Assembly (NCBI GenBank): GCA_902765485.1
Contig: CACWZZ010000008.1
Coordinates: forward strand, 24,571 to 88,570
Source of the DNA: an uncultured Bacteroidales bacterium
GTDB taxonomy: Bacteria; Bacteroidota; Bacteroidia; Bacteroidales; Paludibacteraceae
Direction: 5' to 3'
Length of the DNA stretch: 64,000 bases
The notes under the pieces are model-generated. The model was not told where the DNA came from. It saw nothing but the letters and a program-made list of their open reading frames with translations, and did no database searches. Shown piece after piece: positions 1,095 to 58,996 of this stretch. How positions within the stretch are numbered: the first letter of the stretch is position 1; each line of letters starts with the position of its first letter. A program made the position numbers and the translations under genes.

Positions 1095-2531
1095 ATGAAA
1101 ATGTATCGACTGACACTCCTGCTTCTCGTATTCGCCGGACTGCTATCAGCCTGTTCCGGCGGTGAGGACTATCGGGAGCCCAAATCGGAGGAGGATCTCT
1201 CCGGCCTTGTACTGGCAGCCTCCAACGGCAGTTATTACCAGCAGAAGTACGAAAAACGCACCGATGTGCAGCTTTTCCTTACCTCCAGCGAAGCAGATGG
1301 CGTGCAGGCTGTGCGGCAAGGGCACGCCGATGTCTATGCCAGCGACGAAGTGATGCTCACAAAGGCGGACATGAAGCGTCTGGGCATGAAGAAAGCCTTT
1401 GTCGGCGAGGAGACTTTCGATGTGGCTTTTGGTATTAAAAAAGGTAACACCGACTTGGCTGACCTGCTCAATGCTTTCCTTGCTACCGCTCCGCTGGATG
1501 ACATCATCAACCACTGGATCAACGGCGGACCATATACGGAGGAACCTGCCTATACCATTCCCGCAGGAGCCAAGCCTCTGCGCTGTGTCTGCGCTGTGAA
1601 TATAGCCCCTATCAGTTATGTCGGCGAAGGCGGCAAATGGCAAGGTATGGATGCCGACATTCTCCGGCGGTTTGCGCATTCCAACGGGCGGCCCTTCGAG
1701 ATGCAGTTTATGGATATTGGTTCATGTATCATGGCTATCAACACCGGCAAAGCGGATGTCTTCTCCGCTTGTCTGTTTATTACAGAAGAGCGGCAAAAAA
1801 TGATGGATTTCACCAACCCGTACTATAAGTGTCACCCGGGCTATTTCATCGTGGACCACTCCAGTGACGCACGCATGGGGCTGGGTGAGCGCATCCACAT
1901 GAACCTCATCAAAGAGAACCGTATCAAACTCATTTGGGACGGTCTGGTCGAGACCATCAAGATTACGTTCTTCGCCATTCTCTTAGGCACCATTCTCGGT
2001 ATAGGCGTATGTGCCTGCCGCCGCTCCAAGCGCAGATGGGTACGCGGACTGGCGGACCTATACGGCGATTTCATCAATGGTATCCCGACACTCGTCTTGC
2101 TGCTCATCCTGTTCTATGTGGTCTTTGCCAACTCCGGCATGAGTGCCACTTTGGTGGCTATCGTGGCGTTCGCCATGTGCTTTGCGTCCTCAGCGGGAAG
2201 TATCTTCGACACCTCTATCTCCGCGGTACCCAAAGGACAGACAGAAGCCGGACTGAGTCTCGGTTTCACGCCCTTCAAGACCTTCATGGGTATCGTCTTC
2301 CCGCAGGCGCTGCGCAAAGGTCTGCCGCTCTACACAGGCGAATGTATCTCGCTGCTGAAGAACACCTCTATCGTGGGTTATATTGCTATTTCCGACCTGA
2401 CGCGTGCCAGTGACCTAATACGTTCCCGTACTTTCGATGCGCTCATCCCGCTGCTTGTCATCACGATTATCTATTTCATCCTCGCCTGGCTCATCCGCAA
2501 AACCCTCAGCCTGTGCCTCCTCCGTAAATAA
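1095..2531 (+). CDS. fused solute-binding lipoprotein and amino-acid ABC permease
   Basis: Importer subunit for a polar amino acid, joining the extracytoplasmic binding part and the membrane part. The ATG at 1095 gives a lipoprotein signal ending in SAC (Cys20). Residues of roughly 35-150 resemble the later two thirds of an SBP_bac_3 lobe. A second SBP_bac_3 start follows (CVCAVNIAPISYVGEGGKW and later), so the binding half looks like one partial and one fuller domain. From about residue 271 there is a HisM/GlnP-type permease with several membrane segments. The permease loop EAGLSLGFTP, which contacts the ATPase, lies near residues 384-393. The ATPase gene follows after 27 bases. The substrate cannot be read from the sequence. 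Confidence 0.85.
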   Translation: MKMYRLTLLLLVFAGLLSACSGGEDYREPKSEEDLSGLVLAASNGSYYQQKYEKRTDVQLFLTSSEADGVQAVRQGHADVYASDEVMLTKADMKRLGMKKAFVGEETFDVAFGIKKGNTDLADLLNAFLATAPLDDIINHWINGGPYTEEPAYTIPAGAKPLRCVCAVNIAPISYVGEGGKWQGMDADILRRFAHSNGRPFEMQFMDIGSCIMAINTGKADVFSACLFITEERQKMMDFTNPYYKCHPGYFIVDHSSDARMGLGERIHMNLIKENRIKLIWDGLVETIKITFFAILLGTILGIGVCACRRSKRRWVRGLADLYGDFINGIPTLVLLLILFYVVFANSGMSATLVAIVAFAMCFASSAGSIFDTSISAVPKGQTEAGLSLGFTPFKTFMGIVFPQALRKGLPLYTGECISLLKNTSIVGYIAISDLTRASDLIRSRTFDALIPLLVITIIYFILAWLIRKTLSLCLLRK

Positions 2532-2558
2532 ATCGTACATTCGTAAATCGTACATCTT
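2530..2558. repeat. short quasi-tandem words at gene junction
   Basis: TCGTACAT, TCGTAAA and TCGTACAT follow one another in the gap between the permease stop and the ATPase start. It is one of many such junction repeats in this window. Confidence 0.6.
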
Positions 2559-3632
2559 ATGATAACCATCCATCATCTCAGCAAAACCTTCATCAATCCG
2601 GACGGTTCGTCTCTGACCGTTCTCAAGGATGTGAACTGCACCATAGACAAAGGCGAAGTGATCTCTATCATCGGTCCTTCGGGAACCGGCAAGAGTACGC
2701 TTCTCAGGGCCATCAACATGCTCGAACCGCCCACCTCGGGCGAGATTATCGTCAACGGCGAGAACATCACCGCTCCCGGCTATCCGCTGGACAAGCTGCG
2801 CCGTAAGATGGGCATGGTCTTCCAGTCCTTCAACCTCTTCGAGCACATGACCGTGCTGGAGAATATCACCTACGCCCCGATGCAGCTGCTGAAACTGCCC
2901 GAGGCGCAGGCCAAGGAGGAAGCGATGGAGCTGCTCAAGAAAGTAGGCATGGCGCAGAAGGCGGATGTCTATCCGTCCTCCCTCTCCGGCGGACAGAAAC
3001 AGCGCGTAGCCATCGCCCGTTCGCTTGCCATGCACCCCGATGTCATCCTCTTCGACGAACCCACCTCGGCACTTGACCCGACCATGGTAGGCGAAGTGCT
3101 CTCCGTCATCCGCCAGTTGGCGAAAAGCGGTCTGACCATGCTGATTGTCACCCACGAGATGCGTTTCGCACGCGACGTGAGCACACGTATCTTCTTCATG
3201 AACGAAGGTATCATCTACGAGGACGGCACGCCTGAACAGATCTTCGAACATCCCGTCCATTCGGCTACCAAGGCGTTTGTCAACCGCATCCAGAAACTCG
3301 TCTATGAGATTGACTCGGACGACTTCGATTACCTGCAGATCCACACCGGACTCAACCGGTTCTGCCTCAAGTACAACATCACCGAGAAAGCCGACCGCGC
3401 TTATTCGCTCATCAAGGAGATGCTCTTCACCCACATGCCGTCTTTCCGTCCGCTCACGCTGCGTCTGACGCACACCGAACTCTCCGGCGTGACGGCATTG
3501 GATTTCATGGTGGAGCACCTCAGCGCCTCGCCTCTGACCGACGCCGCCCGTGCTTCCCTCCGTCCGCAGGTGAAGGAACTCATCGAAGAACCCACCACCC
3601 GTGGCTTCCGCATCAAACTGATTATCGAGTGA
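2559..3632 (+). CDS. polar amino-acid ABC transporter ATPase with C-terminal extension
   Basis: Cytoplasmic ATPase of the GlnQ/HisP family, partner of the fused permease just upstream. Walker [10 protein letters not shown] is at residues 39-47, the signature LSGGQKQ at 142-148, Walker B VILFDEP at 162-168 and the switch histidine in THE near 199. A normal GlnQ ends near residue 245. This one continues for about 110 residues that resemble no ABC regulatory domain I know (it starts near [13 protein letters not shown]). The extension is well formed and in frame, so it is a true part of the protein and may be a sensory or dimerising domain. The assignment of the ATPase is firm; the role of the tail is open. 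Confidence 0.92.
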
Positions 3633-3814
3633 CGTACCTTCCAACATCCGTCTCCCGTTCACCGGGCGAAGAGCAACTCACAACCGACCGATGACCGACC
3701 GATGAGCGGCACAAAACCGAGAGACAAAAATCCGTTAACTTTCGCGTTTCTTCCCCAAATCTCAACAAAAATACAACTTTTTGGGAGAAAGACTCATTTT
3801 TTCCCATCCCTCGG

Positions 3815-3846
3815 ACACCTTTTGTCCGTCCCATGTAGTAATTTTG
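3815..3846 (+). promoter_or_regulatory. weak promoter candidate for the YaaW-M48 pair
   Basis: TAATTTTG at 3839-3846 is a good -7 element 31 bases before the start codon. No TTTG sits 20 bases upstream; the nearest TTTG is only 14 bases away. The 245-base gap before it also holds a GACCGACCGAT-type short repeat near 3685-3710. Confidence 0.4.
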
Positions 3847-3877
3847 CGCCAGATTTCAAAAATGAAAGGGCAAAATT

Positions 3878-4615: not shown

Positions 4616-5466
4616 AACCTTCCCAGATCATGCACCCTGCCGATGCCAAGGCGTTGCAGGTGCTCAAACAGGCGCGTGGATTCAACACGCTCGTCAAGTA
4701 CTTCATGGAGAAAGGCGACGAACGTATCATGCGCGGGGAAAACCTCGGTACAATGCTCCGTGTCACGCCGGACAATTTGCCGAAGGTCTATACTGCTTTT
4801 CGCGAAGTGGTAAGCCGTGTGGGTATTGACGAGCCGGAACTGTATGTCTATAACGATCCGGTGATGAACGCTTATACGTATGGCGACACACGTATTTTTG
4901 TTGCCGTGAGCAGTTCGCTTGTGGAACGTCTCTCCCTTCCCGAACTCCAAAGTGTCATGGCGCATGAGTGCGGACATATCCTCTGCCGTCACACGCTTTA
5001 CAAGACCCTGCTGTATATCATCGAGGACATGGGAAAAGCGGCACAAGTTATCACCGAATCGCTTGCTTTCCCTGCCTATTGTGCTTTGCAGTACTGGAGC
5101 CGTATGAGTGAGTATTCGGCGGATCGTTGTGCAGCGGCAGTTGTCGGCGAACAGGTCTTTCAATCCGCTTTTCTCAAACTCACAAGCGGCTTGACAGACA
5201 TACAAGGCAACCCGTATCAGTTAGTCGAACAGGGCAAGAAATACAACGAGATGAAGAACGCTTCTTTCTTGGACCGTGTGCAGCAGGCTTGCCGTGAGAT
5301 GTTTTTCTCTCATCCGCAGAACTGCCAGCGTGCCTATGAAATAGACCGTTGGAAATCCTCTGCCGCTTACCGCAACCTCACCAAAAATCTCTCTCCCGAT
5401 TCCAACCGCGCTAACATACCAACCGCACTAACCCCTTCCAAGCGTGAGTCTCCAACACAGGATTAA
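4612..5466 (+). CDS. soluble M48-family zinc metallopeptidase
   Basis: Zinc endopeptidase of the HtpX/Ste24 clan. The active-site motif HECGH is at residues 118-122 inside VMAHECGHILCRH, and the third zinc ligand is the Glu of SEYSAD near 167, with the usual downstream Asp. The N-terminus has no signal peptide and there is no clear membrane span, so it should act in the cytoplasm, unlike HtpX. It overlaps the YaaW-family gene by four bases. The coupling suggests that the peptidase and the YaaW protein work together, perhaps in quality control or triggered cleavage; that is inference. The last 30 residues are Ser/Asn/Thr-rich and run into an 11-base repeat at the stop. Confidence 0.87.
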   Translation: MKPSQIMHPADAKALQVLKQARGFNTLVKYFMEKGDERIMRGENLGTMLRVTPDNLPKVYTAFREVVSRVGIDEPELYVYNDPVMNAYTYGDTRIFVAVSSSLVERLSLPELQSVMAHECGHILCRHTLYKTLLYIIEDMGKAAQVITESLAFPAYCALQYWSRMSEYSADRCAAAVVGEQVFQSAFLKLTSGLTDIQGNPYQLVEQGKKYNEMKNASFLDRVQQACREMFFSHPQNCQRAYEIDRWKSSAAYRNLTKNLSPDSNRANIPTALTPSKRESPTQD

Positions 5467-5500
5467 CACAGCATTAACACAGGATGAACACAGGATAAGC
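5456..5500. repeat. 11-base quasi-tandem repeat (TTAACACAGGA-like)
   Basis: About four imperfect copies of a word such as TTAACACAGGA overlap the stop of the M48 gene. The last codons of the peptidase are built from the first copy. Confidence 0.75.
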
Positions 5501-5580
5501 GGAACGAAAAAGGGAGAACACCGTAACGAAACCGTCTTCCGGCAAACAAAAACATGCTTATTTCGGGACTTAGATATGCA

Positions 5581-5613
5581 TAAATCTGCCTAAATCTGCC
5601 TAAATCTGCCTAT
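5581..5613. repeat. 10-base tandem repeat (TAAATCTGCC x3)
   Basis: Three exact consecutive copies of TAAATCTGCC, with a partial copy before them, lie about 50 bases upstream of the promoter of the next operon. Confidence 0.85.
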
Positions 5614-14414: not shown

Positions 14415-14427
14415 TCGCACAACTCCA

Positions 14428-14588: not shown

Positions 14589-15416
14589 GTGAGAACAAAT
14601 TTTGATCAACTTCTCGAGGCAGGCGCACACTTCGGCCACCTCAAGCGCAAATGGAATCCGGCAATGGCTCCGTACATCTACATGGAGCGCAACGGAATTC
14701 ACATCATCGACCTGAACAAGACCGTCATTAAAGTAGAAGAAGCAGCAGAGGCCTTGAAAAACCTCGCCCGCAGCGGTCGCAAAGTGCTGTTTGTCGGCAC
14801 CAAGAAACAAGCACAAGAGGTAGTAGCCGCTCGTGCTCAAGAGGTAGGTATGCCGTACATCACCGAGCGTTGGGCAGGTGGTATGCTGACCAACTTCCCG
14901 ACTATCCGCAAGGCAGTTAAGAAAATGGGTCAGATCGACAAAATGATGACCGATGGCACGCTGGAAAACGTTTCCAAACGCGAGAAACTGCAAATCACCC
15001 GCCAACGCGAGAAATTGGAGAAGAACCTCGGTTCTATCGCAGACATGACTCGCCTTCCGAGCGCTGTGTTTGTAGTCGATGTAATGAAAGAGCACATTGC
15101 TGTAGCAGAGGCTAACCGCCTCGGAATCCCTGTATTCGGCATTGTAGATACCAACTCGAACCCGAACAACATCGATTTCGTTATTCCTGCTAACGACGAT
15201 GCAACCAAAGCTATCGACGTTATTCTCGGCGCAGTATGCGAGGCAATCAAAGAGGGTCTCGAGGAGCGTAAGGTAGAGAAAGCAGACGAGAGCGCAGCTG
15301 AAGAGCAGGCTAACGCAGAGGCTCCGGCACCTAAAGAGCGCCGTCAACGCATCCGCAAAGCAGCTCCGAAAGCAGAGAAACCCGCTGAGGAGAAACCCGC
15401 AGAGGACGCAGAGTAA
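14589..15416 (+). CDS. rpsB: 30S ribosomal protein S2
   Basis: Small-subunit protein at the head/body junction. The start is the GTG at 14589, giving MRTNFDQLLEAGAHFGH. No ATG lies upstream in frame at a sensible distance, and this start matches the conserved N-terminus. The core (KWNPAMAPYIYMERNGIHII, ERWAGGMLTNFPTI, IPVFGIVDTNSNPNNIDFVI) is complete. The last 50 residues are an Ala/Glu/Lys-rich tail (AEEKPAEDAE), as in other Bacteroidetes. The 174-base gap before it carries a stem-loop and CATTAA-like words. Confidence 0.96.
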   Translation: MRTNFDQLLEAGAHFGHLKRKWNPAMAPYIYMERNGIHIIDLNKTVIKVEEAAEALKNLARSGRKVLFVGTKKQAQEVVAARAQEVGMPYITERWAGGMLTNFPTIRKAVKKMGQIDKMMTDGTLENVSKREKLQITRQREKLEKNLGSIADMTRLPSAVFVVDVMKEHIAVAEANRLGIPVFGIVDTNSNPNNIDFVIPANDDATKAIDVILGAVCEAIKEGLEERKVEKADESAAEEQANAEAPAPKERRQRIRKAAPKAEKPAEEKPAEDAE

Positions 15417-15450
15417 TTGAGAATTGATAATTGATAATTGAGAATTGATT
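15415..15450. repeat. 7-base quasi-tandem repeat (AATTGAG/AATTGAT)
   Basis: Five AATTGAx words fill the whole gap from the rpsB stop to the tsf start. On the other strand they read CTCAATT/ATCAATT, the same family as the repeats near 30.5, 31.8 and 40.7 kb. Confidence 0.85.
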
Positions 15451-18269: not shown

Positions 18270-19895
18270 GACTTGCTCACGGCAGAATTGGTCCTGCTCG
18301 GCGTACTCCAGCATAGCATTCAGTTTAGAGACATAACGCGCTTGGCGCTCTTCGAAGATAGCGGGCGAGAGGTAGATTTCTGCTTCTCGCTCGTTTGTCA
18401 TGACGAGGCTGGAGCCTACCGAGCGAGGGATATACGTGATAATTCCCCGCTGCGCCAGAGAGACCAAAATCTGGTGGGTCGCTTTATTGTCCGCTTCGCG
18501 GACGTATTGCAGGTCGGTATAGATACCCGAATATTGGCGCATGAGCTGGTCTAATAGCTGCGCTTGCTCCGTAGAAAGGTTATAGGCTCCCAACTCATGC
18601 CGCGGCACGCGGATCTGCACACGCGGTTGGGTCTCGTACTCCTCCTCGAAATGAATATACCCCGCTTGGGTCAGGATATGCAGGGCGGAGTAGGTTTGGA
18701 TGACCGGCAGTTTCATGACGTGGCAAAGCTGGTCCATGTGCAGCGCAAAGCGATGTCCCAAACCGCTACCGGCGCCTATTTGCAGAAAATCCATGGTCTT
18801 GTGATAGACTTGCTCCACAAACTCCTTCGGTGGATAAGTGTCCACGATGCGTTTCTTGGTCTTCGCTTTGTCCTCCTGTTCGTTGAAGAGCAGTACGGCA
18901 TAAGCGGTCTGACCGTCTCGTCCGGCGCGCCCTGCTTCCTGGTAATAACTCTCCAATGTATTGGGCAAATCCACATGGATGACTACCCGCACATCGGGTT
19001 TGTCGATTCCCATGCCGAATGCGTTGGTAGCCACGATGATACGCGTCTGCCCGCTCTTCCATGCCTCCTGCCGCTCGTTGCGCTCTTGGGTAGTTAAACC
19101 GGCATGATAGTACTGCGAATTGAGTGTCGTGGATTGAGAGTTGAGCCATTCGGATAGTTCTTGCGCCCTTTTGCGGTTACGGACATAGACGATTGCGCTA
19201 CCCGGTACGCGGGAAAGGATATGCGCCACTTGGGCGGCTTTATTGTCCGTCCGGCGAACGATATACTGCAAGTTCTCGCGGTGGAAAGACTTGCGGAGGA
19301 CATGCTTCTCTTGAAATTCAAGCTTGTCTTGTATATCGTCGATCGTCTCCGGCGTCGCCGTAGCCGTGAGCGCCAAGACCGGCACGTCCGGCAGTAGTTC
19401 GCGGATCGCCGCTATATTGAGATACGACGGACGGAAATCATATCCCCACTGCGAGATACAATGCGCTTCGTCCACCGCGATCAGCCCGATCGGCAGTTGC
19501 GCCAGACGCTTGCGGAACTCCTCGCTCTCCAGCCGCTCCGGCGAACAATAGAGGAAATGGTACGGTCCGTAGAGACAGTTATCCAGCGCGACGCGCTGTT
19601 TGTCCCAACTCATGCCGGTATAGACCGCCGCCGCATGAATACCTTTTTTCTGCAAGTTCTCCACTTGGTCTTTCATCAGCGCTATAAGCGGCGTGATAAC
19701 AAGGCAGAGACGTTTGTCTGGATTCTCATTCGCCATGACGAGGGTAGGTACCTGAAAACAGAGGCTCTTTCCTCCGCCGGTTGGCATGAGTGCCAGCGTG
19801 TCGTGTCCCGCCAGCACGGACTCAACGATCTCCGCCTGCAACGGACGGAAATCATCGAATCCGAAATATGTCTTTAATGCCTCGCGCGGAGTCAT
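18180..19895 (-). CDS. recQ: RecQ-family ATP-dependent DNA helicase
   Basis: 3'-5' DNA helicase of repair and recombination. Walker A TGGGKS at residues 39-44, DEAH at 142-145, the helicase motifs FGMGIDKPDVR and QEAGRAGRDG, a winged-helix part, then four cysteines (FCREQ, CGHCDVC) that bind zinc at the very C-terminus. There is no HRDC domain, which is common for the 570-residue type. Between the two RecA lobes the text SEWLNSQSTTLNSQYYHAG contains two LNSQ words encoded by the AATTGAG repeat family. The insertion sits in an exposed loop and keeps the frame. The last 27 codons overlap the convergent DUF748 gene. Confidence 0.94.
   Translation of the reverse strand: MTPREALKTYFGFDDFRPLQAEIVESVLAGHDTLALMPTGGGKSLCFQVPTLVMANENPDKRLCLVITPLIALMKDQVENLQKKGIHAAAVYTGMSWDKQRVALDNCLYGPYHFLYCSPERLESEEFRKRLAQLPIGLIAVDEAHCISQWGYDFRPSYLNIAAIRELLPDVPVLALTATATPETIDDIQDKLEFQEKHVLRKSFHRENLQYIVRRTDNKAAQVAHILSRVPGSAIVYVRNRKRAQELSEWLNSQSTTLNSQYYHAGLTTQERNERQEAWKSGQTRIIVATNAFGMGIDKPDVRVVIHVDLPNTLESYYQEAGRAGRDGQTAYAVLLFNEQEDKAKTKKRIVDTYPPKEFVEQVYHKTMDFLQIGAGSGLGHRFALHMDQLCHVMKLPVIQTYSALHILTQAGYIHFEEEYETQPRVQIRVPRHELGAYNLSTEQAQLLDQLMRQYSGIYTDLQYVREADNKATHQILVSLAQRGIITYIPRSVGSSLVMTNEREAEIYLSPAIFEERQARYVSKLNAMLEYAEQDQFCREQVLLAYFGETGAVACGHCDVCRTLSHRVIAE
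19118..19146. repeat. repeat words inside recQ
   Basis: GAATTGAG, GGATTGAG and AGTTGAG words (plus strand) encode LNSQSTTLNSQ on the minus strand. They are the same words that fill junctions at 15.4, 30.5 and 31.8 kb. Confidence 0.7.
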
Positions 19896-21506: not shown

Positions 21507-21513
21507 ATATTTA

Positions 21514-21545
21514 TTAGTATTCAGTTTTCAGTATTCAGTTTTCAG
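21514..21545. repeat. 7-base quasi-tandem repeat (TCAGTAT/TCAGTTT)
   Basis: The words TCAGTTT and TCAGTAT alternate exactly twice in the gltX-serB junction. The last codons and stop of serB are made from the repeat. Confidence 0.8.
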
Positions 21546-30513: not shown

Positions 30514-30550
30514 CTCTCAATTCTCAATTCTCAATTCTCAACTCTCAATT
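30511..30550. repeat. 7-base tandem repeat (CTCAATT x5)
   Basis: Five CTCAATT/CTCAACT units fill the junction between the nucleotide-sugar dehydrogenase stop and the wzx TTG start. Confidence 0.9.
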
Positions 30551-30553: not shown

Positions 30554-31831
30554 TTAATCCCTCCGGAAAATATCCCTTGTATATACTTTTTCCTTCACGT
30601 CGTCCAGACAAGCATCATACCGATTGGCGATGATGGCTTGGCTGCGAAGTTTGAATTTCTCCAAATCATTCACCACTTCGCTTCCAAAAAACGTCGTTCC
30701 GTCTTCCAGCGTCGGCTCATAGACAATCACCTTCGCGCCTTTCGCTTTCACGCGTTTCATAATGCCCTGAATGCTGCTCTGGCGGAAATTGTCGCTGTTG
30801 GCTTTCATCGTCAGCCGATAAACCCCAATGACACATGGATGCTCGTTGGCGGCATCGAAATCGCCGCGCTGGTAGTAGTCGTAATAACCTGCCATAGCCA
30901 GCACTCGGTCGGCAATAAAATCCTTCCTCGTCCGGTTGCTCTCCACGATGGCTTCAATCAGGTTCTCCGGCACATCTTGGTAGTTTGCCAGCAGCTGTTT
31001 TGTGTCTTTCGGAAGACAGTAACCGCCATAACCGAATGAAGGATTATTGTAATGCGTGCCGATTCGCGGGTCGAGGCATACGCCGTCAATAATCGATTTG
31101 GTGTCCAGCCCTTTCATCTCGGCGTACGTGTCCAACTCGTTGAAATAGCTCACGCGGAGCGCCAGATACGTGTTGGCAAACAGCTTGACCGCTTCCGCTT
31201 CCGTCAGACCCATGATACGCACTTCTATCTCCTCTTTGAGCGCACCTTCTTGCAGCAGCGAAGCAAACAACTTGGCTTTCTCCACCAACTGCTCGTCGCT
31301 CAAAACCGTACCGACAATGATTCGGCTCGGGTAGAGATTGTCTTCTAATGCTTTGCTCTCGCGCAGGAACTCCGGCGAAAAAAGGATGTTCGCGCTATGG
31401 TATTTCTCGCGAACCGAAGCCGTATAGCCCACAGGAACGGTGGATTTGATCACCATGACGGCATTCGGATTGACCCGCAAAACGGTCTCAATCACGTTCT
31501 CCACAGCCGAAGTGTCAAAATAATTGCGATGCGGGTCATAGTTCGTCGGCGCAGCAATCACCACAAACTCCGCATCCTTGTATGCCGCCTCTGCATCCAG
31601 CGTCGCCCTCAGATTCAAAAATGGCTGACAGCTGACATCTGACAACTGACGGCTTTCTAAATCCTTGAGAAAGTATTTCTCGATGTACTCATCCTGTATC
31701 GGTGATTGCCGCCGATTGATCATATCCACTTTTTCCGGGATAATATCAACGGCGGTCACCTCATGGTGTTGAGCGAGTAGGGTAGCGATGCTCAAACCCA
31801 CATATCCTGTTCCTGCGATTGCTATCTTCAT
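30554..31831 (-). CDS. UDP-glucose/UDP-sugar 6-dehydrogenase
   Basis: NAD-dependent enzyme that oxidises a UDP-sugar to the uronate for exopolysaccharide. The start is the ATG at 31831 ([20 protein letters not shown]). The Rossmann motif GTGYVG, the middle-domain block [16 protein letters not shown] and the catalytic cysteine in [11 protein letters not shown] are present. It belongs to the short Ugd branch of about 390-430 residues that keeps all three domains. Residues of about 65-76 read [12 protein letters not shown], encoded by CTGACA-type repeat words, in a loop where family members vary. It is the second gene of the leftward operon. Confidence 0.93.
31622..31653. repeat. repeat words inside the UDP-sugar dehydrogenase gene
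   Basis: GGCTGACAGCTGACATCTG, ACAACTGACGG: four CTGAC words in 30 bases, in frame, encoding [10 protein letters not shown] on the minus strand. Confidence 0.6.
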
Positions 31832-31878
31832 TTTAACTCTCAATTCTCAATTCTCAATTCTTAACTCTCAATTCTCAA
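31832..31878. repeat. 7-base tandem repeat (CTCAATT x6)
   Basis: Six CTCAATT/CTTAACT units fill the gap between the two dehydrogenase genes from stop to start. Confidence 0.9.
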
Positions 31879-32634
31879 TTAAATATGCTCTTCCACCCCG
31901 CGGAAATGCACATTCAGCTCATGCAAATGCTCCAGCAGCACACCCAGCGGCGTTCCTTTGGTCATTTCGGCAAAGGCGTTCACATCTTTCGGGAAGCATT
32001 TGCCGCCGTAGCCGTACTTGCCGTCCGGACCCGGAACATACGTGTGCGTGTCGTTGATGTAGCCGGACAGCAGAATGCCGGTATGCACTTTGCGCCAATC
32101 GGCGCCCATCTGCTCGCAATACTCGCGGCAGGCATTGAAATACGTCACTTTGTACGCGCCAAACACATTGTGCATGTATTTGGTCAACTCTGCCTCAAGC
32201 GGAGTCATTACGGTAAATTTCTTGCCGACGAAAATCTTTGTCAACAGCTCCTGCGCACCCGTAAACACCATGGTCTGTTTGTTGAAGTCCTCGATGAACG
32301 TGCGCTCGGTCAAGAACTCCGGCATGTAGCAAACTTGGTGACCCGTCTCGCGCGAAAGCATCTCACTCGTTCCCGGCAGAATCGTGGTACGAACAAATAC
32401 CGGCACATCTGGCAGGTTTTTGATCAGTTCTTTCATCAGCGTCAGATCCTGTGTACCGTCTTCTTCGGTCGGCACGTGAATCTGCAGAAAAGCGATATCT
32501 ACATGACTCAAATCGTCATTGTAGCCTTTGTAAGGATCGCTGATGAACAGTTTGCACTCGGGGTTGTTGTTCTCCAACCAGTTTTTCAGGGCTCCGCCTA
32601 CGAAGCCGCATCCAATAATTCCAACGTTAATCAT
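31879..32634 (-). CDS. short nucleotide-sugar dehydrogenase-like protein
   Basis: Related to UDP-glucose/GDP-mannose dehydrogenases but only 251 residues. It has the Rossmann start VGIIGCGFVGGALKNWL, a middle domain (KYMHNVFGAYKVTYFNACRE) and the catalytic cysteine in GYGGKCFPKD. The C-terminal UDP-binding domain of about 100 residues is absent. The product ends soon after the catalytic segment (HELNVHFRGVEEHI). It is first in the operon, just before a full-length dehydrogenase. It may be a half-enzyme working with a partner or a distinct family; it does not look like simple decay since the frame is open and the end is abrupt but clean. Confidence 0.8.
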   Translation of the reverse strand: MINVGIIGCGFVGGALKNWLENNNPECKLFISDPYKGYNDDLSHVDIAFLQIHVPTEEDGTQDLTLMKELIKNLPDVPVFVRTTILPGTSEMLSRETGHQVCYMPEFLTERTFIEDFNKQTMVFTGAQELLTKIFVGKKFTVMTPLEAELTKYMHNVFGAYKVTYFNACREYCEQMGADWRKVHTGILLSGYINDTHTYVPGPDGKYGYGGKCFPKDVNAFAEMTKGTPLGVLLEHLHELNVHFRGVEEHI

Positions 32635-32932: not shown

Positions 32933-32985
32933 AGTGCGTGATAAGTGCGTGATAAGTGCGTGATAAGTGTGAGATAAGTGTGTCA
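32933..32985. repeat. 11-base tandem repeat (AAGTGCGTGAT)
   Basis: About four units of AAGTGCGTGAT, the last as AAGTGTGAGAT, between the two divergent promoters. Confidence 0.9.
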
Positions 32986-33033
32986 TAATCGGGGTAACTT
33001 GCTATAACATGAATGTTTTTGGGCACCCCTCGG

Positions 33034-33096: not shown

Positions 33097-33177
33097 CTAG
33101 TTTCCCTAGTTTGACTAGTTCTACTAGTTCCACTAGTTTGTCTAGTTTGACTAGTTCTACTAGTTCCACTAGTTCGA
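33097..33177. repeat. 9-base tandem array (CTAGTTnnn x9)
   Basis: Nine units in exact 9-base phase. Units 2-4 (CTAGTTTGA, CTAGTTCTA, CTAGTTCCA) recur as units 6-8, so there is a 36-base higher-order period. It lies in the 5' UTR of the DUF2723 gene, 35 bases before the ATG. CTAG is usually a rare tetramer in bacteria. Confidence 0.95.
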
Positions 33178-33212
33178 CTATAAAAACAACATTTAATTAA
33201 TAACAATAAACA

Positions 33213-40422: not shown

Positions 40423-41083
40423 TCTTGCGGATGATGGTTAATCCGTCTCGCAAAGGGAGGATGACTTGCTCAAAGCGGTCGTCCTCTTTTATTTTGTCGT
40501 TGAATGCTCTCAGTCCTAGAGTTTGTTTGTCTTTGTCGTACGCCGGATCCACGATATGTCCGTCCCATAGGGTATTATCCGCCAAGATAAATCCACCCAC
40601 AGGAACTAAGGGATAAATGGCATCGATGTATGCGCAATATTCCCGCTTGTCTGCATCTATGAATACTAAGTCAAATTGAGAATTGAGAAATAATCGTGCC
40701 CCTGAGGGGCTAAGAATTGAAAATTGAGAGTTGAGAATATTTATTGCGTCTCCGATCACTAATTCAATCCGTTCGCCGAGCGGCGAGCGCGCCAGATTGC
40801 GGCGAATTGTATCTTCCAACTCATCGTTATGCTCTATGGTAATCAGTTTGCCGCCTTCTGCTAATCCTTCCGCCAGACAGAGCGCGCTGTAACCGGTGAA
40901 TGTACCGAGTTCCAAAATCCGCTTCGGGCGAATCATATAACTGATCATGCTTAGCGCGCGCCCCTGCACGTGCCCGCTCAACATGTGCGGGTTCAATATA
41001 TGGACGTGCGTGTCGCGCGTGATAGACTCTAACGCTTCGTTCTCCGGCGTCGTGTGAACCGAAATATACTCCTCAAGTGTCAT
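40415..41083 (-). CDS. SAM-dependent O-methyltransferase with repeat-encoded insert
   Basis: Class I methyltransferase of the CCoAOMT-like family. The start is MTLEEYISVHTTPENEAL; the longer reading runs into the promoter. The SAM site is ILELGTFTGYSALCLAEGL, the metal-binding part VFIDADKREY and LADNTLWDG. Between GDAIN and FDLVFIDADK the family has about ten residues; here there are 23 or so, including [17 protein letters not shown] and LNSQ. These are the translation of AATTGAG repeat words flanking a GCCCC-TGA-GGGGC hairpin. The frame is kept and the catalytic residues are intact, so the enzyme may still fold. Confidence 0.9.
   Translation of the reverse strand: MTLEEYISVHTTPENEALESITRDTHVHILNPHMLSGHVQGRALSMISYMIRPKRILELGTFTGYSALCLAEGLAEGGKLITIEHNDELEDTIRRNLARSPLGERIELVIGDAINILNSQFSILSPSGARLFLNSQFDLVFIDADKREYCAYIDAIYPLVPVGGFILADNTLWDGHIVDPAYDKDKQTLGLRAFNDKIKEDDRFEQVILPLRDGLTIIRKIK
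40674..40738. repeat. composite repeat insert in the O-methyltransferase gene
   Basis: AATTGAGAATTGAG on the left, a GTGCCCCTGAGGGGCTA hairpin in the centre, and AATTGAAAATTGAGAGTTGAG on the right. It is in frame and its words match the junction repeats. Confidence 0.85.
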
Positions 41084-41150: not shown

Positions 41151-41180
41151 CACACAATTTAAAATCATTTGACGATAGAA

Positions 41181-42630: not shown

Positions 42631-42866
42631 TGTCGAAGAAGTTTTACATATTGTCCTTCGTTCTATGCCTTGTGGCATGCTCGTCCACTCAATTTACCGT
42701 GGATGACGCGTACCATTGGGAGGATCGCTCTGCGATAGCGACTACTACGGCTACGCCGGAAGACCCGTCTAGTTCCACTAGTTCATCTAGTTCTACTAGT
42801 TCTGGTCCCTCCCTCGAATACACCAACGTTCAAGACACTACTATTACTGTCCGAATCAAACGATGA
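42630..42866 (+). CDS. small lipoprotein with repeat-encoded Ser/Thr tract
   Basis: A 78-residue exported lipoprotein (lipobox LVAC, Cys17). The middle is SSSTSSSSSTSSG, encoded by four CTAGTTnnn units in frame, the same 9-base word as the array at 33.1 kb. Its stop overlaps the start of the outer-membrane protein gene (ATGA), so the two are coupled. No family recognised. Confidence 0.75.
   Translation: MSKKFYILSFVLCLVACSSTQFTVDDAYHWEDRSAIATTTATPEDPSSSTSSSSSTSSGPSLEYTNVQDTTITVRIKR
42769..42804. repeat. 9-base tandem array inside the lipoprotein gene (CTAGTTnnn x4)
   Basis: CTAGTTCCA, CTAGTTCAT, CTAGTTCTA and CTAGTTCTG in exact phase and in frame. Two of the four words also occur in the 5' UTR array at 33.1 kb, on the same strand. 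Confidence 0.9.
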
Positions 42867-44538: not shown

Positions 44539-44544
44539 CACCCG

Positions 44545-48018: not shown

Positions 48019-48495
48019 ATGACTACGGATTTATCAAAATATGATGCTTCCCAACTGCCTAGCGCTGATGTTCTCGAACGTCAGCGCTATGCGATTGTAG
48101 TGGCAGACTGGAACAGCGAAATCACGTACGCGATGGCGCAAGGCGCTCTAGATACGTTTATCAAACACGGCGTGCCGGAGGATAATATAGATATTATCCA
48201 TGTGCCGGGAGCGGTGGAGCTGACGTATGGAGCTGCGCGTATCACCAAAGAGGAACGCGTGAGTGCAGTGATTGTCATCGGCTGCGTAATCCAAGGCGAC
48301 ACACCGCATTTTGACTTCGTGTGTCAGTCTGTGACGCAAGGCGTGGCAATGCTGAATGCGCAGGGCAAAGTGCCTGTGATTTTCTCGGTTTTGACGACCC
48401 TGAACAAACAACAGGCGTTGGATCGTTGCGGCGGCAAACTGGGAAACAAAGGTATCGAAGGAGCCTATACAGCGATTCGCATGGCGAACCTGTGA
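48019..48495 (+). CDS. ribH: 6,7-dimethyl-8-ribityllumazine synthase
   Basis: Riboflavin pathway, joining 5-amino-6-ribitylaminouracil and dihydroxybutanone phosphate. Key blocks: VVADWNSEITYAMAQGA, HVPGAVELTYGA, the phosphate site in VIGCVIQGDTPHFDFV with its catalytic His, and SVLTTLNKQQALDRCGGK. At 158 residues it has the usual length. It is followed by a purine repeat that leads into lysC. Confidence 0.95.
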   Translation: MTTDLSKYDASQLPSADVLERQRYAIVVADWNSEITYAMAQGALDTFIKHGVPEDNIDIIHVPGAVELTYGAARITKEERVSAVIVIGCVIQGDTPHFDFVCQSVTQGVAMLNAQGKVPVIFSVLTTLNKQQALDRCGGKLGNKGIEGAYTAIRMANL

Positions 48496-48531
48496 AAGGT
48501 GAAAGGTGAAAGGTGAAAGGGGAAAGGGGAG
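48493..48531. repeat. 7-base tandem repeat (GAAAGGT) forming the lysC ribosome-binding region
   Basis: Four GAAAGGT/GAAAGGG units overlap the ribH stop and reach the lysC start codon. The last units (GGGGAAAGGGGAG) would act as a strong Shine-Dalgarno sequence four bases before ATG. Confidence 0.85.
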
Positions 48532-52894: not shown

Positions 52895-53914
52895 ATGCTG
52901 TATCCTTTTAAATTCGCCCCGCAATTCTTCCACAAACTATGGGGAGGACATACAATCGAGAAATGGTATGACGACGTGCCCGCCGACTATGAGAATGTCG
53001 GTGAGGCATGGGTCATATCGGATGTTGAGCGCTTTCCGACCGTTGTGGCTAACGGACCTCATACCGGCGATTCGTTGCAGGATCTGCTGGAGGTCTATAT
53101 GGATGAATTGGTCGGGGGAAAGGTATATGAGGTCTTCGGAAATCATTTCCCGCTGCTGCTGAAATTCATTGACGCGGTGGATGATCTCTCGATTCAGGTT
53201 CATCCGAATGATGAGTATGCGCTGGAGCATGAGAACTCGCTGGGCAAAACGGAGATGTGGTATGTGATGCCTGCTCCGGGTAAATCGGCTGTCTATCTGG
53301 GTTGGAACAAGACTATGAATGCTTCGCTGATCCATGCTGCAATCTCGGATGGTACGCTGGCGAATCACCTCAAGCACTATGATGTGCGCGAGGGCGATGT
53401 GGCGTATATTCCCACAGGAACAGTACATGCCATGTGCCGCGATACCATCGTGGCGGAGATCCAGGAGAATTCGGATATCACGTATCGTCTGTACGATTAT
53501 AACCGGGTGGGGAATGACGGTCGCATGAGACCGCTCAAACTGGATAAAGCGATGGAAGTGATGTACTTTGAACCGATGAAGGAAGCCGCTGTGACGCATC
53601 CTGATCCGGTTGAGAACGGAGCGGTGAACCTGAAGAAATCGCCGTATTTCACGACCAATATCCTTTCGCTCTCAACGCCCGTTCAGCGCGATTACATGCC
53701 GCTGGATTCGTTTGTCGCCTATATGTGCGTGGAGGGTGAGTGCAAAGTGACAGCCTTGGATGGCGAAGTGCCGCAGTCAGATCTGTTCACCAATAATGAG
53801 AACACCGTCTCTATGCGTGTTGGCGAGGCGGTTTTGATTCCGGCGTCGCTCAACGACATCGTGATCCACCCGCAGGGACATTGCAAACTGTTGGAGATCT
53901 ATGTGGATCTCTAG
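52895..53914 (+). CDS. manA: mannose-6-phosphate isomerase, class I
   Basis: Zinc enzyme that links fructose 6-phosphate and mannose 6-phosphate. The start is the ATG at 52895 (MLYPFKFAPQFFHKLWGG); upstream in-frame codons are in galE and the repeat. SIQVHPNDEYALEHE holds the zinc ligands Gln, His and Glu, and PTGTVHAM the last His. At 339 residues it is the short Firmicutes/Bacteroidetes form. The stop lies in a CCTAG repeat, followed by a terminator. Confidence 0.94.
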   Translation: MLYPFKFAPQFFHKLWGGHTIEKWYDDVPADYENVGEAWVISDVERFPTVVANGPHTGDSLQDLLEVYMDELVGGKVYEVFGNHFPLLLKFIDAVDDLSIQVHPNDEYALEHENSLGKTEMWYVMPAPGKSAVYLGWNKTMNASLIHAAISDGTLANHLKHYDVREGDVAYIPTGTVHAMCRDTIVAEIQENSDITYRLYDYNRVGNDGRMRPLKLDKAMEVMYFEPMKEAAVTHPDPVENGAVNLKKSPYFTTNILSLSTPVQRDYMPLDSFVAYMCVEGECKVTALDGEVPQSDLFTNNENTVSMRVGEAVLIPASLNDIVIHPQGHCKLLEIYVDL

Positions 53915-53950
53915 TATCCTAGGGTCCTAGTATCCTAGGGTCCTAGTAAT
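53911..53950. repeat. 8-base tandem repeat (CCTAGTAT/CCTAGGGT)
   Basis: Five CCTAGxxx units with the two forms alternating, starting at the manA stop and ending at the terminator. Confidence 0.9.
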
Positions 53951-53979: not shown

Positions 53980-54565
53980 ATTGGAAGAAACTGAAATGTA
54001 CGCTGCCGTACGTGCGCGTTTCTACATGTCGTGGGTGCGTGGTGAAATCGGTGTCCTTGCCATGCTCGATCACTAACCAGCCGCCGGGTTTGAGAATAGA
54101 ATCTTTCTCCTCCGAATCCTGATGGCTGATAGCTGAATCCTGACGGCTGATAGCTGAAGGCTTCAATATCACATCCGGCAGAGTGGGGAGCTGCTCCAGC
54201 GCATAAGGCGGATCGGCGAAGATCAGATCGTATTTCGCACGGCACGAAGAGAGGAATTTGAATACATCGCCACGAATCAGACTCAGATTGCGGATCCCGA
54301 GTTGCTTGCAGCAGGCGATGATCCAGTTCTGCTGCACATGCGCCAACTCTACGGCGGTCACTTCGCGTGCTCCGCGGCTGACGCACTCCAAGCCGATACC
54401 TCCTGTTCCGGCAAAGAGATCCAGCATATCGATCCCCTCAAAATCCATTCGGTTATTGAGCAGGTTAAACAGGCTCTCCTTGGCGAAATCAGTTGTTGGT
54501 CTCGCGGTGATATTTTTAGGGGGCGACAACCGCCGCCCCCTGTATGTTCCAGAGATAATCCGCAT
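53978..54565 (-). CDS. rsmD: 16S rRNA (guanine(966)-N2)-methyltransferase
   Basis: Methylates G966 of 16S rRNA. RIISGTYRGRRL and TARPTTDFAKESLFNLL are the RsmD start; LDLFAGTGGIGLEC the SAM site; LIFADPPYALEQL the NPPY-type catalytic motif (here DPPY). After PDVILKP the text SAISRQDSAISHQDS is the translation of a 21-base tandem repeat, inserted before ILKPGGWLVIEHGK. The insert lies between two strands and keeps the frame; the enzyme is 195 residues against about 180 usually. Confidence 0.93.
   Translation of the reverse strand: MRIISGTYRGRRLSPPKNITARPTTDFAKESLFNLLNNRMDFEGIDMLDLFAGTGGIGLECVSRGAREVTAVELAHVQQNWIIACCKQLGIRNLSLIRGDVFKFLSSCRAKYDLIFADPPYALEQLPTLPDVILKPSAISRQDSAISHQDSEEKDSILKPGGWLVIEHGKDTDFTTHPRHVETRTYGSVHFSFFQ
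54117..54158. repeat. 21-base tandem repeat inside rsmD
   Basis: Two units of CTGATGGCTGATAGCTGAATC, the second as CTGACGGCTGATAGCTGAAGG. They are built of CTGA words like those in the UDP-sugar dehydrogenase gene. Confidence 0.85.
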
Positions 54566-55351: not shown

Positions 55352-55389
55352 TATAGCTTAAATTTAAATAGTTTGCACAAAAATCGCTG

Positions 55390-55421
55390 CAAAGGTACAA
55401 AAAAATTTGCATATGTGCAAG
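55390..55421 (-). promoter_or_regulatory. promoter of the 54593-55351 gene
   Basis: On the minus strand CTTG, 20 bases, TACCTTTG (CAAAGGTA at 55390-55397, CAAG at 55418-55421 on the plus strand). It interleaves with the divergent RSH promoter. Confidence 0.75.
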
Positions 55422-55437
55422 AAAAATCGTAAATTTG
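55406..55437 (+). promoter_or_regulatory. promoter of the RSH synthetase
   Basis: TTTG at 55406-55409, 20 bases, TAAATTTG at 55430-55437, about 48 bases before the ATG. Its presence shows the short RSH gene is complete as transcribed. Confidence 0.75.
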
Positions 55438-55484
55438 CAGCGTTTTTTACGTATTACTCCCCTTATGGGACAAAATGAACGAAT

Positions 55485-56921: not shown

Positions 56922-57559
56922 GCGATTATCCATCCATATTATTAGAGCAAGCCGTAAACCAGATGGCTTCGTTGCCCGGAGTAGGGCGGCGGACGGCTTT
57001 GCGGCTCGTGCTGCATCTCCTGCGTCAGTCCGACCCGGAGGTGGAGACTTTTGCTAATGCCTTTCTGCGGCTCAAAAAAGAGGTCGTTTACTGCAAGGAA
57101 TGTCATAATATCTCGGACACGGAGATATGTCCGATTTGTAGTTCGGCGCGCAGAGACCATTCGACAATTTGCGTCGTGGAGAACGTCCAGGACGTTATGT
57201 CCATTGAGAACACGGGACAGTATAACGGCGTCTATCATGTGCTGGGAGGGGTGATCTCGCCGATGGAAGGGATCGGACCGAAAGATATTGAGATTGATTC
57301 GCTCGTAGAGCGGGTGGCGAAAGGTGGAATAGACGAGATCATCTTGGCGCTTCCGACCACGATGGAAGGAGACACCACCAATTTCTATATCTATAGAAGA
57401 TTGCAGAATGCACAATCTTCAAATCCTCAAATCTTTGAATCTTCAAATCTTAAGATCACCCAGATTGCCCGCGGTGTGGCGGTGGGTAACCAACTCGAAT
57501 ATACCGACGAGATCACGCTCGGGCGGTCGATTGTAAACAGAACGGATTTTAACGGATAA
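56918..57559 (+). CDS. recR: recombination mediator RecR
   Basis: RecFOR pathway protein. Helix-hairpin-helix [18 protein letters not shown], four-Cys zinc finger CKECHN...CPIC, Toprim part ([28 protein letters not shown]) and the end TLGRSIVNR. After YIYRRLQN the segment [13 protein letters not shown] is the translation of TCTTCAAA/TCCTCAAA repeat words, placed just before [13 protein letters not shown]. The family has few residues there. At 213 residues it is about 12 longer than usual. The start is coupled to the RSH stop. Confidence 0.95.
57412..57453. repeat. 8-base repeat words inside recR
   Basis: AATCTTCAAATCCTCAAATC, TTTGAATCTTCAAATCTT: five words of the TCTTCAAA family, in frame. 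The same word fills the junction at 58.0 kb. Confidence 0.85.
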
Positions 57560-58005: not shown

Positions 58006-58040
58006 ATTCTCAAATCTTCAAATCTTCAAATCTTCAAACC
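58006..58040. repeat. 8-base tandem repeat (TCTTCAAA x3-4)
   Basis: TCTCAAA, TCTTCAAA, TCTTCAAA, TCTTCAAA fill the gap between stop and start. Confidence 0.9.
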
Positions 58041-58042
58041 CT

Positions 58043-58465
58043 ATGATAATAGCTTGTGATTTTGACGGTACGATCGTGACGCACGAGTACCCGAAAATAG
58101 GCAAACCCATTCCGTTTGCCATTCAGACCTTGAAGAAACTGCAAGAGGAGGATCACCACCAGATCATCCTTTGGACCGTGCGCGAGGGTGAACTGCTGCA
58201 AGAAGCCTTGGATTACTGCAAGTCCAAAGGCTTGGAGTTCTATGCCGTCAATTCCAACTATCCGGAGGAAGAGCCGGAGCATCACACGGCGCGTAAACTG
58301 GTGGCGGATCTGTGGATTGATGACCGTAATTTAGGCGGTCTGCCGGATTGGGGCGTGATCTATAACATGATCCACACCGGACACCCGTTTGAGCCTGCGC
58401 CGCAAGGCAATATGGAGGATCTGAGCAAGAAGAAAAAAGGCTTCTTTGCCCGTTTGTTTGATTAA
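58043..58465 (+). CDS. HAD-like hydrolase, short
   Basis: A 140-residue protein with the HAD start IIACDFDGTIV (nucleophile and acid Asp both present), a second motif ILWTVREGE (Thr), and LWIDDRNLGG as the metal-binding Asp pair. It lacks a cap domain. The tail KKKKGFFARLFD is basic. Substrate unknown. Confidence 0.82.
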   Translation: MIIACDFDGTIVTHEYPKIGKPIPFAIQTLKKLQEEDHHQIILWTVREGELLQEALDYCKSKGLEFYAVNSNYPEEEPEHHTARKLVADLWIDDRNLGGLPDWGVIYNMIHTGHPFEPAPQGNMEDLSKKKKGFFARLFD

Positions 58466-58466
58466 T

Positions 58467-58492
58467 TCGTAATTTTTAATTCGTAATTTCCC
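58467..58492. repeat. short words before the GNAT gene
   Basis: TTCGTAATTTTTAA and TTCGTAATTTCC: a near-duplicate 13-base unit between stop and start. Confidence 0.6.
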
Positions 58493-58996
58493 TTGTTGCG
58501 TTTACGCAAAATAGAACCCTCTGACCTGCCGTTTCTCTATCAATGGGAGAACGATGCGGCTTCATGGGCGGACGGAGCGAACCATAACCCCTTGTCCCAG
58601 CAGGACTTGCGGGACTATATCGCTTCCACCACCGGCGACATCTACCGCGACGGTCAACTGCGGTTGATTATTGAATCTTCAAATCCTGCAACCCTCGGTT
58701 GCGTTGATCTTTTCGACTTTGACCCTCGCAACCTCCGTGCAGCGATCGGCATGTATATTGCGCCGGAGTACCGAGGCAAAGGAGTAGGGCACGAAGCCCT
58801 GAAACAGCTGGAATCCTATGCCTTCGATTTCCTGCATCTGAGGTGCCTCTATGCCGTCATAGCCACGAATAACACCCCTTGTTCCACTCTCTATTCCCAT
58901 GCCGGCTATACGCCATCCTCTGTTCTTTCCGCTTGGACCTTGGAGTCCGACGCGGTTATATGGATAAAAACGAACACATTACGTCAAGGCAGGTAA
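58493..58996 (+). CDS. GNAT-family N-acetyltransferase with a rebuilt C-terminus
   Basis: A 167-residue acetyltransferase of the SpeG/RimL type. Start LRLRKIEPSDLPFLYQWEND; the acetyl-CoA loop is MYIAPEYRGKGVGHEALKQL. Only TTG codons (58493 or 58496) can start it; the preceding repeat may have replaced the original ATG. IIESSNPATLG in the middle contains one TCTTCAAATCCT word as in recR. The gene end has been changed by a 162-base tandem duplication. The present reading ends KTNTLRQGR, while the second copy of the 42-base segment would end KTNYKE then stop, which looks like the ancestral end. Confidence 0.85.
   Translation: MLRLRKIEPSDLPFLYQWENDAASWADGANHNPLSQQDLRDYIASTTGDIYRDGQLRLIIESSNPATLGCVDLFDFDPRNLRAAIGMYIAPEYRGKGVGHEALKQLESYAFDFLHLRCLYAVIATNNTPCSTLYSHAGYTPSSVLSAWTLESDAVIWIKTNTLRQGR
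58934..58975. repeat. 42-base direct repeat, left copy
   Basis: Identical to 59096-59137 over 42 bases, starting TGGACCTTGGAGTCC and ending AAAAACGAAC. The left copy lies in the GNAT gene, and 120 bases separate the two. Confidence 0.95.

Follow-up and report, generated by a model that had tools for sequence, protein, structure and literature searches.

Short tandem word arrays at gene contacts and within genes of a Paludibacteraceae genome, and their variation among related species

Word arrays in the window

The stretch analysed here (the window) comprises 64,000 nucleotides (nt) of an uncultured Bacteroidales bacterium of the family Paludibacteraceae (G000:C8:24571-88570) and belongs to a 2.1 Mb draft genome, G000. 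Its rpsB protein has 93% identity to the one of 'Bacteroidales bacterium UBA3843', 81-84% to three Paludibacteraceae sequences and 71% to a fourth, in line with a position near that family. Several of its gene junctions and genes carry words of 7 to 11 bases repeated in imperfect tandem arrays. The original prediction, which described one architecture shared by many different words, named 18 sites. Repeats were present at 17 of them (5.45, 5.58, 15.4, 19.1, 21.5, 30.5, 31.6, 31.8, 32.9, 33.1, 40.7, 42.8, 48.5, 53.9, 54.1, 57.4 and 58.0 kb), and the idea of a single architecture with many words was upheld; the site at 58.7 kb holds a single TCTTCAAA and no array. Eleven of the 17 sites are intergenic or span a gene end, and six lie within genes. 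Hereafter, G-numbers denote draft genomes of the same genus and L-numbers further sampled stretches, with one genome per species throughout; negative junction lengths are overlaps.

Among the intergenic sites, a period-11 array of 3.9 copies of AACACAGGATT (5454..5496, +) spans the stop codon of an M48 peptidase gene, and a period-10 array of 3.6 copies of TGCCTAAATC (5577..5612, +) lies between genes. The rpsB>tsf junction is filled by a period-7 array of 4.9 copies of AATTGAG/AATTGAT (15415..15448, +), which starts inside the rpsB stop codon. Between a serB-like gene with HAD and ACT domains, whose end overlaps the repeats, and a class I (E/Q) tRNA synthetase gene, we found a period-7/14 array of TTTTCAG/TATTCAG (21512..21545, -). 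Two period-7 arrays read AATTGAG in the gene sense: one (30511..30550, -) is located between 30554-31843(-) and 29158-30513(-), and the other (31838..31880, -) between 31879-32634(-) and 30554-31843(-). The first of these junctions contains 75 nt of AATTGAG in G018 and measures -1 to 11 nt in five genomes, while the second is 1-2 nt long in G006, G042 and G046. A divergent intergenic region holds a period-11 array of 5.1 copies of AGTGCGTGATA (32933..32988, +), and 9.3 copies of the period-9 unit CTAGTTnnn (33097..33180, +) are placed upstream of a TMEM260-like gene at 33213. Further along, 5.6 copies of the period-7 unit GTGAAAG (48492..48530, +) occupy the junction of ribH with an amino-acid-kinase gene; a period-8/16 array of CTAGTATCCTAGGGTC (53911..53948, +) follows the gene 52841-53914; and 3.6 copies of the period-8 unit TCAAATCT (58010..58038, +) fill the junction between 57565-58005 and the gene at 58043, which is 1 nt long in G003 and G022.

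Within genes, imperfect CTCAATT words run in frame through recQ (19118..19147, -; peptide WLNSQSTTLNS) as a gapped series that gave no report from Tandem Repeats Finder, and period-7 words of the CTGACAG family are in frame in the UDP-glucose dehydrogenase gene (31624..31654, -). In the O-methyltransferase gene 40415-41125(-), AATTGAG words flank the hairpin TCGTGCCCCTGAGGGGCTAAGAA on both sides (40674..40738, -), in frame and free of stops. Period-9 CTAGTTnnn repeats (42768..42803, +) form an in-frame Ser/Thr linker in a 78-residue lipoprotein-like open reading frame (42630-42866, read by eye); this linker consists of CTAGTTnnn in G000 and G015 and of different sequence or repeats in other species. 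Period-7 words (SAISRQDSAISHQDS; 54114..54158, -) are in frame in the Cons_hypoth95 gene 53978-54565(-) and absent or different in other species, and TCAAATCT words (57414..57451, +) are in frame in recR, where relatives have none or a replacement.

Abundance, unit sizes and spread of the arrays

Arrays were sought with a gapless finder (units of 5-13, score of at least 16, at least 2.6 copies) in 458,322 bases of G000, that is, the window and 20 extra stretches (L101-L120), 88% of the sample being called coding. The array density of G000 is biased upward, since part of the extra stretches was picked for CTCAATT matches. This sample contains 90 arrays, 67 of them intergenic and 23 in genes, with gene-finder error not excluded one by one for the latter; five dinucleotide shuffles that preserved the dinucleotides of genes and of gaps yielded 0.2 arrays per run. 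The intergenic arrays have units of 7 (30 arrays), 11 (19), 9 (9), 8 (5) and other sizes (4), and over all 90 arrays, periods 7 and 11 account for 49 and 20, respectively. The 21-mer CAATTCTCAATTCTCAATTCT, with at most two mismatches, has 113 overlapping matches in G000, on many contigs and in at least 38 separate places; its reversed control has none.

Single words were counted in the same sample against a second-order Markov expectation. Counts above expectation, on which the prediction could be judged, were obtained for CTCAATT (141 versus 70) and TCAGTTT (112 versus 58) but not clearly for GAAAGGT (75 versus 67) and not for CCTAGTAT (1 versus 3.8), whereas the tandem arrays are in excess. 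The excess resides in the tandem arrangement, and the single-word excess is a weak test for several words. These results confirm that the repeat class at the named sites is real and above chance.

Ten other genomes of the genus, each sampled over 78-100 kb, contain 7.0-26.2 arrays per 100 kb; their unit sizes are those of G000, but most of the words are different. Elsewhere, the density per 100 kb is 11.9 in the named neighbours (L002-L006 and L024), 3.5 in other Bacteroidales and 1.3 in L028-L074 (mostly Flavobacteriales), and no array was found in 31 kb of L001 and L027 or in 71 kb of L075-L080. Across the order, a looser heptamer pattern (AATTNAN repeated) matched in 128 of 295 genomes, with a very uneven distribution; the reversed pattern is uninformative as a control here, since it too amounts to a heptamer array where genomes are A/T-rich.

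Position, strand and unit cores

The predicted stop-to-start location agrees with the positions of the arrays, most of which lie between genes or across gene ends. In co-directional gaps, the 54 period-7 arrays have a mean G+C fraction of 0.24, a median distance of -1 nt from the upstream stop (inside or at the codon) and a median of 13.5 nt to the next start. The corresponding medians are -3 nt and 4 nt for the seven period-8 arrays, while the 20 period-11 arrays (G+C 0.50) occupy longer gaps, with medians of 57.5 nt past the stop and 59.5 nt before the start. The G+C fraction is 0.21 in arrays at most 15 nt from the start (37 arrays) and 0.37 in those further away (50 arrays; p=9e-6). These bacteria mostly lack Shine-Dalgarno signals, and an A/T-rich array just before the start codon could serve as an unstructured leader.

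A role of the period-11 arrays as promoter parts was discarded. The box TAnnTTTG, which we take to be the Bacteroidota -7 element, occurs between array and start in 3 of 19 co-directional cases printed, compared with 65 of 228 background gaps (60-250 nt, sense box), so that no link between these arrays and promoters is seen.

The strands of the arrays are sorted by stop codons. Inserts at the junctions compared below contain 9.65 stops per 100 nt in the sense strand versus 5.39 in the antisense strand (51 versus 14 inserts, p=4.5e-6), and the 14 tandem inserts within genes contain 3.47 versus 9.02. The low density within genes is expected, as a gene stays open only if the frame read through its insert contains no stop. 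Arrays of ATTGA words in co-directional gaps of G000 are in the sense orientation in 13 cases and antisense in 3. An AATTGAG run has TGA in every frame, and its complement, CTCAATT, is stop-free and is the form present in recQ and in the O-methyltransferase gene.

With units phased by the seed word, variation within 27 AATTGAG arrays affects position 7 in 14 of them, position 1 in none, positions 3 and 6 in one each, and positions 2, 4 and 5 in four to six; within nine CTAGTTnnn arrays, positions 7-9 vary in five to six and positions 1-4 in none. Successive CTAG distances in the G000 sample are exactly 9 in 66 of 152 cases. Such conserved cores with free positions (AATTGAn, CTAGTTnnn), the regular CTAG spacing, the consistency of the sense strand and the nearness to start codons would all fit words that act as regulatory sites for an mRNA- or DNA-binding protein (S1, Csp or another) and spread by selection for regulation, as proposed for TAACTGA repeats. 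We regard this explanation as unlikely, given that each genome has several unrelated words, that these change between species whose proteins are 79-90% identical to those of the window, and that the same kind of word stands in coding sequence in the opposite, stop-free orientation.

Orthologous junctions with and without arrays

Junctions of the same genus are empty in some species and filled in others, and about half of the inserts contain a detectable array. We compared 42 co-directional junctions of G000 with those of up to 11 same-genus genomes (12 in all), from species whose proteins show the 79-90% identity given above. Among the 32 junctions seen in at least five genomes, 22 touch or overlap (at most 6 nt) in two or more genomes while one or more others have a filling of 18-160 nt; the fillings amount to 82 inserts. 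A tandem signal was detected in 40 of these at a score of at least 11 (28 with period 7) and in 23 at score 16, while shuffled inserts gave 0.6 on average at score 11.

The fillings of one junction differ in word and length. The rpsB>tsf junction is 2 nt long in G003, G006 and G046, as well as in L024, and 29-38 nt long in the other seven genomes, where it is filled with AATTGAT/G in G000, AAATCGT in G002 and G021, and other sequence elsewhere. The junction of ribH with the kinase gene is -15 to -4 nt in four genomes and holds GTGAAAG in the window, CCCRTAA in G018, AATCGTC words in G002, and other words or short gaps in the rest. Between the RelA/SpoT gene and recR, the distance is -4 or -1 nt in six genomes, including G000, and the junction is filled in five. 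In L119 (12591>13290), eight of 12 genomes have -8 nt and four have 24-150 nt of differing sequence. At one orthologous site, we identified AATTGAG in G000, an AATTGTG cassette in G018, AATTAAA in G015 and GAAAGGT in G046, with little or nothing in G006, G022 and G043. Orthologous sites that all carry the same repeats, the outcome named beforehand as contrary to the prediction, are therefore not what is observed: the junctions differ in filling, word and length.

On a tree built from 40 proteins with a midpoint root, the 22 junctions with two states under this scoring (at most 7 nt versus at least 18 nt, junctions seen in at least seven genomes) require at least 55 gains or losses. The touching state is often exactly the same overlap across species (-8 nt in 8 of 12 genomes, -4 nt in 5 of 11), and the identical overlap in many species argues that this state is often the older one. 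The reverse history, in which the fillings are old spacers and the touching state arises by deletion, could draw on the junctions whose root is filled or undecided (see below); the shared exact overlaps, together with filled states that differ in word and length, make it very unlikely.

Inserts within conserved genes

Alignments of 46 genes contain 91 lineage-specific inserts of at least 6 residues, 14 of which have a tandem signal, and the rest include ordinary indels and hairpin-like pieces. Comparison with sister species bears out the claim of in-frame insertion into conserved enzymes: sister species lack, or have other sequence in place of, the inserts of UDP-glucose dehydrogenase, of the Cons_hypoth95 protein (SAISRQDSAISHQDS) and of the methyltransferase (SILSPSGARLF). 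The UDP-glucose dehydrogenase insert at 31.6 kb is absent in seven of nine aligned genomes. It coincides with a gap in the best-matching solved chain, 3phl_A, as the RecR insert at 57.4 kb does in 3vdp_A, and from these gaps both positions are presumably surface loops.

Further short pieces were observed within genes (L119 6650-6735, 6228-8803 and orthologues), namely, hairpins of the CCCTCCCTAAAGGAGGG and CTCAAGAGAGGGAG types (PSLKGGE, PTLPSREGE) and GTCTTACAGCGAAGCG words (SGLTAQRS). Several genomes of the genus contain many matches to the piece at L119 6650-6735.

Species word sets, hairpin cassettes and candidate enzymes

The words vary between species, which use their own repeatedly at separate loci, and words of this type also stand in frame in some conserved enzymes. 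When inserts of the same species were paired across junctions, at least two sense 7-mers were common to both in 16.4% of 311 pairs, versus 7.3% with shuffled species labels (0 of 500 shuffles reached 16.4%). With one strand reversed the value was 6.1%, so that the orientation of the words towards the genes is maintained. Recurring words are clearest in G000, G006 and G021, and none were found in G022, G043 and G046 (four inserts each). The CAATTCT array pattern has 113 overlapping matches in G000, 78 in G018, 45 in G019 and 27 in G021, and 0-3 in each of the other 21 same-genus genomes of the search. The predicted recurrence of word families at distant loci is thus seen in the many sites that a single word occupies in one species, and word sets that differ between species point to an insertion process.

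Some words stand beside hairpins. In 19 of 41 genomes we found the hairpin AATAATCnTGCCCnnnnGGGCTAAGAA, at 54 places altogether (control, 0), either alone or with a second hairpin, TTTGGCnnnGCCAAA; the composite was found in 13 places in 4 of 12 chosen genomes (cassette stretches L188 and L189-L196). Nine cassette copies with differing flanks were read: all nine have words of the AATTGTR type on the left, and six have them on the right as well, so that the two-hairpin cassette recurs together with its AATTGTG words in unlike surroundings. In the window, a single hairpin stands between AATTGAG words at 40.7 kb. The word-armed cassettes are the strongest indication that words and cassettes are copied jointly.

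These observations bear on purely local replication slippage, by which each array would have grown from the bases of its own junction, with selection clearing the coding frames. Imperfect units, duplicated multi-unit segments (the array at 33.1 kb contains a 36-bp higher-order repeat) and words common to one junction across species are what slippage would leave, and an ancestral TAATTATG, as in G003, could seed AATT words. Heptamers are also the commonest long repeat in many bacteria, for which slippage has been the explanation (Mrazek 2007, as told in PMC4679880). Nevertheless, a given word occupies many loci of one species, sister species hold different words at a shared locus, and the hairpin cassette with its word arms is placed between different flanks. 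Loss of MutS was rejected as a cause: the MutS_V domain is present in 40 of 41 genomes, with strong matches (E below 1e-55) in 38, the exceptions being G018 (54% complete; none), G047 (weak only) and G042 (weak, plus a further match split in two). The present data largely refute purely local slippage, as the original prediction had anticipated, and we hold it to be improbable.

A dedicated mobile element could instead template the words by reverse transcriptase or move them as REPIN-like hairpins by a Y1 (RAYT) transposase. The dispersed, word-armed hairpin cassette resembles REP doublets in outline, G000 has one match to the reverse transcriptase family RVT_1, and G018, which holds the cassette, has both families. 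As a general cause, however, neither enzyme was retained: RVT_1 is found in 11 of 41 genomes (3 of the 16 of good quality) and Y1_Tnp in 16 of 41 (12 over the cut-off), with no Y1 match in G000. G021, G047 and G050 (63, 84 and 97% complete) hold the cassette and show neither family, although absence from drafts is no proof. An element of this type seems to us the least probable of the explanations considered. The words had been called mobile or templated; copying of cassettes with their flanking words is suggested by our data, but an enzyme was not found, and reverse transcriptase and Y1 transposase are unsupported.

Other sequences of the window

A search of the window with Rfam gave no known RNA family at the gathering threshold, and a search of the window for tRNA and tmRNA genes found none. 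Between rpsI and rpsB (14415-14588), several species conserve a leader ahead of rpsB (CCAAATCGTGTGGACTCC...GGGATTACCACACGATTG); with no Rfam match in the window, it is perhaps a ribosomal-protein leader RNA. Three stretches of 50-95 bp (~41094-41161, 44508-44601 and 55380-55447) match many of the searched same-genus genomes at ~80-94% identity. GTACCTTTGC is present on one strand in 44508-44601 and 55380-55447, and TTTGCATATG in ~41094-41161 and 55380-55447; because of these sequences, the recurring stretches look like near-identical strong promoters.

Origin of the arrays

We interpret the arrays as lineage-specific insertions: copies of words or cassettes would reach further sites, grow there through slippage and then be sorted by selection. 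We assign this interpretation a probability of about 0.55. Existing words or word-flanked cassettes would be pasted into new sites and give rise to new arrays there, possibly through template switching or ectopic gap repair at short matches, with host repair and replication doing the copying. The arrays might then lengthen or shorten by slippage in whole units. Judging from orientation and position, selection may retain only harmless insertions: within genes, those in frame with the stop-free strand, and at gene contacts, those with the stop-rich strand, with which the upstream gene would end at once in any frame. The net effect would be to uncouple overlapping genes.

Several observations weigh against this interpretation. 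No tandem signal was detected at score 11 in 42 of the 82 junction inserts, which may be decayed arrays or other sequence. By parsimony, the midpoint root of the 22 junctions is empty in eight, filled in three and undecided in 11, so that part of the empty sites may have lost an insert. For a given junction, the inserts of different species share words in 20.1% of 134 pairs, versus 6.4% of 2,876 unrelated pairs, and part of the similarity among inserts therefore reflects descent, exchange or shared junction sequence. In the genomes compared, no intermediate, donor or enzyme for array gain was seen, and no gain between strains was caught, each species being represented by a single genome. The hairpin pattern AATAATCnTGCCCnnnnGGGCTAAGAA has no match in G000, because the two G000 copies that were read have another loop length. 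The strand bias extends in part to the 308 spacers without a detected array (6.54 stops per 100 nt sense versus 5.74 antisense; 140 versus 113; sign p=0.1, Wilcoxon p=0.009), and stop codons as a feature common to all words were rejected, being significant for period 7 and for the junction inserts as a set and not for period 8 or 11 alone. Variation limited to certain unit positions is not predicted by copying with neutral slippage and requires added selection on the core. Finally, all the genomes are drafts, and gene calling relied on a home-made finder, which missed recQ.

A bolder form of the insertion reading, which we offer only tentatively, is that throughout Bacteroidales an unrecognised DNA copying process, working without reverse transcriptase or REP transposase, pastes a species' own words and word-armed cassettes into protein loops and places where genes meet. 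The word set would then be a drifting, heritable lexicon, replaced between sister species and rewiring translational coupling and protein loops. Insertions of this kind would offer a route for rapid change of operon spacing and enzyme loops between close relatives, and word peptides in Bacteroidales proteins (NSQFSIL, SAISHQ) may be products of insertion. As empty and filled copies of the same junction stand side by side, with species-specific words, the origin, rate and direction of the process become measurable.

Comparison with known systems

Tandem arrays of 7-nt units have been described in several phyla since about 1990, without a known origin, and STRR is a name for such heptamer arrays. 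The original prediction knew of no named element of this kind, a claim that does not stand: according to PMC4679880 and PMC4692102, dispersed intergenic heptamer arrays are known as LSSR and occur in cyanobacteria (Nostoc among them), Xanthomonas, Beggiatoaceae and five Bacteroidetes. As described there, such arrays are dispersed, mostly intergenic and imperfect, with 7-nt units dominant and a position that is often conserved while length and sequence vary. The arrays of G000 agree with this description, having units of 5-11 nt above chance with heptamers commonest, an intergenic location in 67 of 90 cases and dispersed recurring words. Compared with those reports, the present genomes add empty orthologous contacts, species-specific words, strand sorting by stop codons, in-frame inserts in enzymes and an 11-nt class.

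A related case is the TAACTGA repeat, reported in PMC4679880 from Beggiatoaceae, Cyanobacteria and five Bacteroidetes, including Paludibacter propionicigenes. It is likewise a heptamer with stop codons in the sense strand, mostly just upstream of starts, in forward orientation and with indels in 7-nt steps. This forward, start-proximal placement is shared here by the period-7 (13.5 nt) and period-8 (4 nt) arrays but not by period 11 (59.5 nt). In that case, one word was studied and similar heptamers were rarely repeated in the main genome, whereas here many words turn over and units measure 7, 8, 9 and 11 nt. TAACTGA is the unit of none of the 30 intergenic period-7 arrays of G000, and one period-11 array in L106 contains it. 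BrickBuilt, a minisatellite and miniature inverted-repeat transposable element of Porphyromonas gingivalis (PMC4596501), is also a species-specific intergenic tandem repeat of Bacteroidales with small inverted repeats at many loci; its unit is 23 nt, with 19 copies in one strain that are always intergenic and at least 49 nt from genes, whereas the 7-11-nt words of the present arrays abut stops and starts and enter genes. REPINs (PMC3116915) resemble the cassettes as dispersed composites of two hairpins, but the cassettes have word arrays as arms, and three of the four genomes that hold them, as well as G000, have no Y1 transposase match.

Products of reverse transcription (telomerase-like or from diversity-generating retroelements) would call for a reverse transcriptase gene in every genome with arrays, and RVT_1 is present in 11 of 41. 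Expansion of microsatellites under mismatch-repair deficiency would call for loss of MutS, and MutS_V is present in 40 of 41. In Rickettsia, palindromic elements of ~100-150 bp are short repeated DNA found in frame in conserved genes. In-frame insertion in conserved genes is common to both systems; the tandem inserts described here are arrays of 7-11-nt words, and only the short hairpins approach such palindromes.

In the literature consulted, we found no description of such arrays in this genus, the tandem repeats described in the phylum being those of PMC4679880 and PMC4596501. The arrays reported here belong with the known heptamer arrays, to which they add word sets particular to a species, turnover at junctions, sorting of strands, inserts in enzymes, a class of 11-nt units and word-armed cassettes.

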